DNA from: Bacteroidia bacterium
Lineage (GTDB): Bacteria > Bacteroidota > Bacteroidia > Bacteroidales > JAPLDU01
Length of the DNA: 46,230 nucleotides
Direction of reading: 5' to 3'
Assembly (NCBI GenBank): GCA_026391255.1
Contig: JAPLDU010000065.1
Coordinates: 1-46,230 of the forward strand
How positions within the stretch are numbered: position 1 is the stretch's first letter; each line of letters starts with the position of its first letter. Below, piece after piece: positions 11,422-46,230 of this stretch. A program made the translations under genes and the position numbers. The notes under the pieces were generated by a model that did not search any database, was not told where the DNA came from, and saw only the letters and a list, made by a program, of their open reading frames with translations.

Positions 11422-11501
11422 TAAATATTATGGTTTGTAAAAAAGATTTGACTATTTCAGCTATCCCAAATAATTGCAATTCACATCGGGCACCTGGGAA
11501 A

Positions 11502-11677
11502 CCGCCTCAGATTAATTTGCGTAGAATTCAAAGAAAATTTGTGTGCGAAGGGACTGGCAAGCAGCCCACGAGTACCGGCGGAAGAATTAATATTTATAGG
11601 AACTTGCAAATTCCGGTACGGCTTGGGCTGCGTGAAGACAAATTTTCTGTAGAATTCAGCAAATTCATCTGTAACGG
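11502..11677. repeat. Repeat family N, copy 1 (176-bp long palindrome)
   Basis: Terminal arms of about 40 bp are inverted copies (CCGCCTCAGATTAATTTGC at the left, GCAAATTCATCTGTAACGG at the right; each arm also contains GAATTC and AAAATTTG). An inner hairpin pairs GCAGCCCA and GTACCGG with their complements. A second copy of exactly 176 bp is at 23916-24091. The continuous open frame across it is shared by both copies, but the palindrome can explain it. Confidence 0.85.
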
Positions 11678-11760
11678 TGACTTTTCTTTGATTACTTTCG
11701 TGGGTAAATGAACAATTTATATCACAAATCTGAAAATATTTATTTCCAAACATCAATTTG

Positions 11761-23553: not shown

Positions 23554-23763
23554 TCAGAATCTATATTAAATCAACTTATTACGAGTAAAAAAGCAATCTG
23601 AAAGATGAATTATTTAGTACCAGTATTTGAATTGAAAAAAATTCAAGATTTAGATACATTCAATTTTTACCCGCCCCTAACCCCTCCCTGCGAGCAAGGA
23701 GGGGAACTGATCCCTGCGAATTTCAGGCATATAACATAACGGACAATCCCTTCCCTGCTAGCA

Positions 23764-24181
23764 TACTCTTTATATATCAGCTTACATAATACTAAGGTTC
23801 AATTCTATTTGTTGATCGTTCTTGGACAGCAACCGCATTATGGTTTTGATGCTTAGATTTTGCCAAATTTTGAATAATGACTGATAAGTTCAAATCTCTT
23901 AGGGCTGAAGGATTTCCGCCTCAGATTAATTTGCGAAGAATTCAAGGAAAATTTGCGTGTGGTTGGTCATGCAAGCAGCCCACGAGTCCCGGCGCAGAAA
24001 GGATAAATAAAAGTCAAAAACAAAATCCGGGACGGCTTGGGCTGCGTGAAAGCAAATTTTCCGTAGAATTCAGCAAATTCATCTGCAGCGGAGATTTTTC
24101 TTTGTTACTTTCTTTTGATGGTTGCAAAAGAAAGTAATAATCAGTACTTTAGTATATATGAAAATATGTGTATAAAGAGTA
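23764..24181. mobile_element. Non-coding inserted element with 13-bp terminal inverted repeats
   Basis: Ends are TACTCTTTATATA (23764-23776) and TGTATAAAGAGTA (24169-24181), inverted with one mismatch. The flanks CCTGCTAGCA and CCTGCCAGCA look like a ~10-bp target duplication with one difference. The element carries repeat N copy 2 and no transposase, so it would be non-autonomous. Its neighbours on both sides align to the two halves of repeat L. Confidence 0.6.
23916..24091. repeat. Repeat family N, copy 2 (176-bp long palindrome)
   Basis: It has exactly the same length as the copy at 11502-11677. The ends CCGCCTCAGATTAATTTGC and ATCTGCAGCGG are matching inverted arms, and the inner hairpin uses GCAGCCCACGAG / GGGCTGCGTG. 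The inside differs by substitutions and matched small changes. Confidence 0.85.
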
Positions 24182-24389
24182 ACCTGCCAGCATGGAGTGG
24201 ACAAATGGGAGAGTATAAGATACAATTAATATAATAATAACTAAGCATATAGGATGTTTTATTCAACTTAATTATAAAATTCAAAACAGTTTCTTAACTC
24301 ATTTTTTAGGAAACTTGCTCCTGAATAATGATTAAATTATTGCTTTTTTTGCAGAATGAATAATCATTTATGATATTCATTTAATCCTT

Positions 24390-31510: not shown

Positions 31511-31580
31511 GAAACTAAGGTTTATTTTGTTATTTTTACCAGACAACAATGAATAAATATATGCAATTTTGTAAATAAAT

Positions 31581-31812
31581 TTAGAAACTGTTTTGAATTT
31601 TATTAAGAATTTGATTATTAGCGTATAATTTAATTTATTTACCCTCCCCTTTTTCCCCTCCCTGCTGGCAGGGAGGGGATTGTCCGCTATGTAATACGTT
31701 ATAATTTAGCAGAACTCTATTCCCCTCCTTGCTCGCAGGGAGGGGTTAGGGGCGGGTAAAAATTGAATGTTTCAATAACTTGAACTTTTTTAAAATTCAA
31801 AACGGTTTCTTA
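31581..31812 (+). repeat. Repeat family L, copy 3 (complete, with both ends)
   Basis: The left end TTAGAAACTGTTTTGAATTT and right end AAATTCAAAACGGTTTCTTA are terminal inverted repeats with few mismatches. Two internal GC-rich blocks, CCCCTCCCTGCTGGCAGGGA and CCCCTCCTTGCTCGCAGGGA, are each palindromic. The size (232 bp), terminal repeats and lack of coding potential fit a MITE-like element. It ends 27 bases before the TonB-like gene. Confidence 0.75.
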
Positions 31813-31838
31813 GTCATTTACTTTTAAAAATAAAGATA

Positions 31839-40259: not shown

Positions 40260-40328
40260 ACTGGTATCAGGTATCAGGAGTGATGAACAATTGAACTCCG
40301 CCTCCGGCGGACGAACTATCGAATAATA
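40260..40328 (+). repeat. Phrase repeat C with TCCGCC/GGCGGA palindrome
   Basis: GGTATCAGGTATCAGGAGTG begins a few bases after the peptidase stop codon. GAACAATTGAAC is then split by TCCGCCTCCGGCGGA (40297-40311) before GAACTATCGAATAAT. Confidence 0.75.
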
Positions 40329-40330
40329 CT

Positions 40331-40535
40331 TAGAAACTGTTTTGAATTATTAAAATTTCAAGCTATTGATGCATTCAATTTTTACCCACCCCTAACCCCT
40401 CCCTGCAAGCAAGGAGGGGATTTGATCCACGCGAATTTCAGACATAAAACATAGAGGTCAATCCCCTCCCTGCCAGCAGGGAGGGGAAAAAGGGGAGGGT
40501 ACGAAAAACTTTATAATATAATAATAATCAATCAT
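40331..40535 (+). repeat. Repeat family L, copy 4
   Basis: The left end TAGAAACTGTTTTGAATTA is followed by two GC-rich palindromic blocks (CCCCTCCCTGCAAGCAAGGA-like and CCCCTCCCTGCCAGCAGGGA). The right terminal repeat is not preserved. Confidence 0.65.
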
Positions 40536-40564
40536 ATAAGAAGATTAATCACTTCATCACTTCA

Positions 40565-45954: not shown

Positions 45955-46230
45955 ATTGTCCCTTAGTCTCTTAGTCTCTCAGTCACTTAGTCTCTTCGTC
46001 GCCCGGTCGCTTAGTTCGTCAAATCTCTTCGTCCCTCAGTCGCCCTTTCGTCCCGTCGCTTAGTTCGCCAAGTCTCTTAGTCACTCAGTCTCTTAGTTTC
46101 TTCGTCGCCCGGTCGCTTAGTTCGTCAAATCTCTTCGTCCCTCAGTCGCCCTTTCGCCCCGTCGCTTAGTTCGCCAAGTCTCTTAGTCACTCAGTCACTT
46201 AGTCTCTTCGTCGCCCGGTCGCTTAGTTCG
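45955..46230 (+). repeat. Higher-order phrase repeat G with exact 106-bp period (continues beyond window)
   Basis: Drifting words CTTAGTCT, CAGTCACT, TTCGTCGCCCGGTCGC and TCAAATCTCTTCGTC form a block that repeats exactly every 106 bases. The landmark TCTTCGTCGCCCGG starts at 45993, 46099 and 46205. The two complete copies differ by only a few bases. It has no long open frame and is GC-richer than other intergenic DNA. Confidence 0.9.

Follow-up and report, generated by a model that had tools for sequence, protein, structure and literature searches.

With high confidence, the gene-less element described here is a non-autonomous passenger: it depends on an insertion sequence (IS) of the same genome that belongs to the IS4 family (IS50/Tn5-like), moves by cut-and-paste, targets dyad-symmetric GC hairpins and generates 10-bp duplications. 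It lies in a window of 46,230 nucleotides, the whole stretch of DNA that was analysed, which is the entire contig C24 of a draft genome of 4.08 Mb in 161 contigs from a Bacteroidia bacterium. The original prediction, made from the letters of the window, was that a transposase-less mobile element had inserted into another repeat, the palindrome L. It is supported by empty sites, many copies, perfect 10-bp duplications and transposase gene ends located in the same termini.

The passenger was probably moved by the IS4-type transposase of this genome, and the mode of transposition was presumably cut-and-paste. The transposase would bind the ~19-bp ends (CTACTCTTTATACA..) on the IS and the passenger alike, excise the element and insert it at target cuts staggered by 10 bp, which would account for the 10-bp duplications. 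The target would be a dyad-symmetric GC hairpin, cut at most about 2 bases from its axis, so that each insertion would split the hairpin into halves. On this reading the window copy is an old insertion of this hairpin-splitting kind.

Window element, copies and empty sites

The element has a length of ~419 bp and, as a whole, a fold z-score of -6.8 (Table 1). The predicted terminal inverted repeats, TACTCTTTATA (23764-23774) and TATAAAGAGTA (24171-24181), are inverted copies of each other without a mismatch, and the flanking sequences CCTGCTAGCA and CCTGCCAGCA, described as a duplication of ~10 bp with one difference, are identical at nine of ten positions. Boundaries were slightly reset by comparing copies, which gave CTACTCTTTATACA...TGTATAAAGAGTAG as the true ends of the non-autonomous family and an outermost C and G as the normal limits of its termini (CTACTC...GAGTAG). 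The window copy is decayed, since the outer left C is missing and the outer right G is now A (24182). It is an old and internally deleted copy of a non-autonomous family of ~600-640 bp. An Rfam search of the window gave no matches.

Table 1. Features of the window element, its flanks and the related repeats.
Feature	Position	Strand	Remarks
Left half of the interrupted L repeat	23601..23763	+	
Left target duplication CCTGCTAGCA	23754..23763	+	9/10 match to right copy
Non-autonomous element, decayed and internally deleted	23764..24182	+	ends and interior match copies on C88, C55 and C10; aligned
Left terminal inverted repeat TACTCTTTATA, usual outer C lost	23764..23774	+	
N palindromic repeat inside the element	23884..24104	+	N free-standing also at about 11470-11700
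Right terminal inverted repeat TGTATAAAGAGTA + A, the last A replacing the usual outer G	24169..24182	-	
Right target duplication CCTGCCAGCA	24183..24192	+	
Right half of the interrupted L repeat	24183..24304	+	
Intact L repeat, paralogous empty site	31573..31824	-	alignment to joined flanks
Intact L repeat, paralogous empty site	40327..40549	+	alignment to joined flanks

The flanks had been read as the two halves of L, and joining them restores an uninterrupted L. The joined sequence aligns through the junction with two intact L copies, at 80% with 2 gap positions (40327-40549) and at 74% with 25 gap positions (31824-31573). The insert is absent from both, which are paralogous empty sites, as the original prediction had expected of an alignment of L copies. 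The L palindrome, CCCTCCCTGC-NN-GCAGGGAGGG, is the commonest target hairpin in this genome. L itself (31581-31812 and about 40 genome places) is repetitive, ~230 bp long, and consists of two GC hairpins enclosed by terminal inverted repeats (AGAAACTGTTTTGAATTTTAT...); it looks like a mobile or REP-like element. Four Y1-type (PF01797, RAYT/IS200-like) transposase genes are located on contigs C66, C82, C160 and C108 and may have a connection with the 125 hairpins of L type counted below.

A BLAST comparison of the window element with the genome returned 28 matches. Its 11-mer end occurs 27 times, versus 7 for the reversed control pattern, and the 13-mer TACTCTTTATACA occurs 22 times, versus 0 for a control pattern; the search for second copies of the ends, on which the prediction depended, thus returned many. 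In genomes of the same order the 13-mer end gave isolated matches only, 0-2 per genome. End matches on contigs C77 and C117 were dismissed as chance, since no other part of the element is present there. The fuller copies on C88 (643 bp), C55 (593 bp) and C10 (about 640 bp) mutually align end to end, and the fresher copies carry perfect 10-bp duplications. The complete C88 copy matches 51 places in the genome, many of which are independent repeats carried inside it.

The N palindrome reported aboard the element is real. The interior is composed of other repeats, N and a second one of ~150 bp, and what the passenger has in common with the autonomous IS is limited to roughly the last 20 bases at the ends. 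The free-standing N and the N carried by C88 are 96% identical, and the free-standing one has no such element ends. Like bacterial MITEs, the passenger is short, gene-less and multi-copy, with a target duplication and with terminal inverted repeats that an IS in this genome also has. It differs from them in its interior: because N also stands alone without the ends, the element is regarded as a patchwork of other palindromes bounded by IS ends and not as a simply deleted IS.

Transposase gene ends and a complete relative

Four contig ends carry the start or the end of a transposase gene within termini common to the passenger. Contigs C10 and C133 stop about 139 bases into a copy, with an ORF start (MEPKQLEIDFEINFDGMFKDKRLE) behind the left end, and contigs C63 and C90 end in coding sequence (...LGGWKGYNSTALPGPITYKRGLDKF...) running into the right end; frames were read by eye in both cases. 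The IS4-type fragment at C63/C90 was recognised by NCBIfam NF033590 (E=3e-5), and a Pfam search with the short end fragments gave 0 matches. In this genome the gene is assembled as both ends only, broken by assembly gaps. A PF01609 search of the genome returned two genes (C137 and C3), neither of which is the transposase sought.

Where collapsed copies have broken the assembly, the two contig ends that flank one copy are expected to carry the same duplication, and this was observed. Identical duplications (10/10 in each case) pair the contig ends C10/C90 (CCCTGCTAGC) and C133/C63 (GGCTTCAGCC), which are autonomous IS copies, as well as C41/C30 (GTCTTAAGGC) and C158/C137 (CCTAAAACAG), which are passenger copies. 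Each pair presumably represents one single copy. The duplication of contig C113 also fits C137, but its arm does not extend the palindrome. Such identical 10-bp duplications pair draft contigs across missing IS or MITE copies, which makes them a simple scaffolding trick.

The relative L084, which belongs to another family, was found by searching 393 genomes from this order. It is a complete element of 1522 bp with ends as in the element of this genome and a perfect 10-bp duplication (CTGCCAGCAG). Its transposase is a single ORF of 473 aa (NF033590, E=4e-95), which aligns with the Tn5 transposase (E=6e-27) so that the catalytic residues D, D and E coincide and YREK is conserved, and which contains the IS4-family signature Y-(2)-R-(3)-E-(6)-K (YCFRWQIEQFFRITK). 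When this protein was compared with the present genome, only two contig-end fragments matched, and no complete autonomous copy is assembled, so that the reading frame may not be intact here. This counts against the passenger reading, as do the short stretch in common between passenger and IS and, in the window copy, the lost outer bases and the imperfect duplication. The proposed search for a transposase with matching termini was thus answered by the gene ends inside the same termini and by L084. Judged from these sequences, the mobilising enzyme is likely an IS4-family, Tn5-like transposase. The stop codon TAG of the transposase forms the last three bases of the terminal repeat GAGTAG (L084:1621-1635; C63 and C90 ends).

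The duplication expected of the IS4 family, about one helix turn or ~10 bp, is 10 bp in L084, in C88 and in the four paired contig ends, and 9-11 bp in most of the clade of L084. Members of the IS50 subgroup have ends of the pattern CW------Y---CA-A--W-, a length of 1350-1550 bp and direct repeats of 8-9 bp (PMC2266710). The 19-bp end of L084, CTACTCTTTATACACATCT, agrees with this pattern (compared by eye) and with 14/19 positions (hand count) of the Tn5 mosaic end, CTGTCTCTTATACACATCT (PMC3347997). L084 resembles IS50/Tn5 in this end, in its homologous transposase, which has D, D, E and YREK, and in its length, which falls within the subgroup range. It differs in the CTA ends, the insertion at hairpin axes and the direct repeats of 10 bp instead of 8-9 bp; because of the last of these it is named IS50-like and not a standard member of the subgroup.

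Target choice

Nearly all of the ~27 insertions in this genome sit in GC hairpins (flanks read by eye), about 15 in the L type and about 12 in other types (CCCCGGGCTTCAGCCCGGGG, CCCCGGTCTTAAGGCCGGGG, CCCCTCCTAAAACAGGAGGGG and variants, a few of them decayed); L was therefore not a chance target. Allowing up to three mismatches, there are 125 L-type palindromes in the genome, versus 0 for the reversed pattern. They make up 0.07% of the genome, yet received about 15 of the ~27 insertions (binomial P about 5e-41, assuming independent insertions). The 10-bp duplications lie at most about 2 bases from the symmetry axis, and those in the L hairpin show two registers that mirror each other, each displaced by two bases from the axis (+2 in C10/C90, -2 in C88). 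In the five empty sites that were rebuilt, 9-12 of 11-12 positions are complementary, versus the usual 4-6 at random window positions.

Public genomes were scanned for relatives, which yielded 80 loci; those without convincing termini (e.g. L160, L170, L174, L175, L187, L192 and L197) were omitted from the target analysis. The CTA-ended relatives and L084 fall within one clade, which comprises 22 rows and is supported at 100/100. CTA-ended elements whose termini and duplication could be set are located in hairpins in a gammaproteobacterial MAG (CCTTCCCCCATCGGGGGAAGG), Bradyrhizobium (CTCCCCTTGTGGGGGAG) and Rhizobium (CTTCTCCCCTCGGGGAGAAG), and likewise in Prevotella (CCCCTCCTGTAGGAGGGG) and Flavobacterium (ACAGCCCATAAAAGCTGT), the hairpin sequences being different. 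Four more genomes from this order (G012, G191, G027 and G284) have right flanks that mostly form a CTGCC(N)GGCAGG hairpin of variable loop length; L090 and L093 are among the few there with no clear hairpin at the flank. At the right flanks of L082, L083, L085 and L088-L100 the duplication begins at a constant place on one arm whatever the length of the loop, a hint that a single hairpin arm anchors the cut in related genomes.

The hairpin arms vary by lineage (CCTTC/GAAGG, CTTCT/AGAAG, ACCCC/GGGGG, ACAGC/TGTTT), yet pair within each site. Across 32 sites 106 arm pairs were counted, versus 58 with swapped arms and a maximum of 80 in 5000 shuffles; the 11 non-redundant CTA sites gave 45 versus 29 (P 0.0002). 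This covariation of arms across lineages favours, without proving, recognition of a symmetric structure.

It is nearly an even question whether the target is instead chosen by sequence, with a transposase dimer reading the symmetric double-stranded motif CCC-N12-GGG around the 10-bp cut, which hairpins merely satisfy. All five two-sided sites resolved in this genome have a C-run to the left and a G-run to the right of the cut at a nearly fixed distance, and for this reason recognition of sequence and of shape are indistinguishable here. The right flanks in G012, G191 and G027 mostly start with CTGCC/CTACC followed by GGCAGG, which also suits a sequence motif. The more distant IS50 relatives are mixed: L176, L183, L201 and L199 sit in hairpins, and the CTTNCAATTACCC group prefers the plain flank GTAAGCG, after which it is mostly inserted with no hairpin. 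Against a sequence motif stands the pairing of lineage-specific arms beyond the level of arm swaps, although specificities particular to each lineage could still explain it. A proteobacterial IS50-like group (L157, L163, L173 and L189), with ends CTTNNNATTACCCAC or CTTGCAACTACCCAC, inserts directly after GTAAGCGT in four species, an apparent second target specificity in the IS50 subgroup.

We consider it possible, though rather unlikely, that a widespread Tn5-like branch picks its targets by shape, namely an extruded cruciform or single-stranded hairpin, with an axis cut that is largely independent of sequence. If so, hairpin repeats would be landing pads for IS and their gene-less passengers.

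Insertion anywhere, with survival only in harmless intergenic hairpins, is very improbable. The hairpin repeats are indeed intergenic in the ORF map of the window, but even with ~15% of the genome assumed to be tolerated, L palindromes would account for well under 1% of that portion, compared with their share of about half of the insertions. The cut, too, falls at most 2 bases from the axis. That the insert is part of L, or a product of recombination between repeats and not of transposition, is hardly credible: many copies do adjoin or sit inside L repeats, but there are intact L copies without the insert, the same ends occur in several unrelated hairpins with 10-bp duplications, and copies with the same ends and a transposase exist.

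Comparison with other palindrome-targeting elements

Insertion at a palindrome axis is already known for other IS. ISRm22 (IS4 family) of Sinorhizobium meliloti has every copy at the palindromy axis of a REP hairpin (PMC1525189) and was assigned to subgroup IS4Sa (PMC2266710). It shares with the passenger and its IS the IS4-family affiliation and the position at the axis of a repeated hairpin, and differs in its subgroup, its 6-bp duplications and its single REP sequence, in contrast to the 10-bp duplications and several hairpin sequences within one genome reported here. Specific insertion into repeated palindromes, REP or palindromic units, was also described for IS1397, ISKpn1, IS621, ISPsy8 and ISPpu9/10 (PMC1525189); these belong to the IS3 or IS110 families, with other chemistry and duplication lengths. 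The present clade combines IS50-type ends and protein, mostly 10-bp duplications and several hairpin sequences. Our search of mainly open-access literature found no hairpin-targeting IS50 element, though a paper on one may exist.

The transposase of Tn5, which serves as a tagmentation tool, is one of the best understood DDE enzymes. Its natural cousins described here, which settle at hairpin axes, offer a defined enzyme clade and a solved structural template for studying palindrome recognition. The finding also helps to explain the build-up of insertions in the hairpin repeats of such genomes and the breaks of draft assemblies there.

At the end of the contig, the window additionally contains a tandem array (45965-46225) with a spacing of ~49 bp and a higher unit of ~106 bp.
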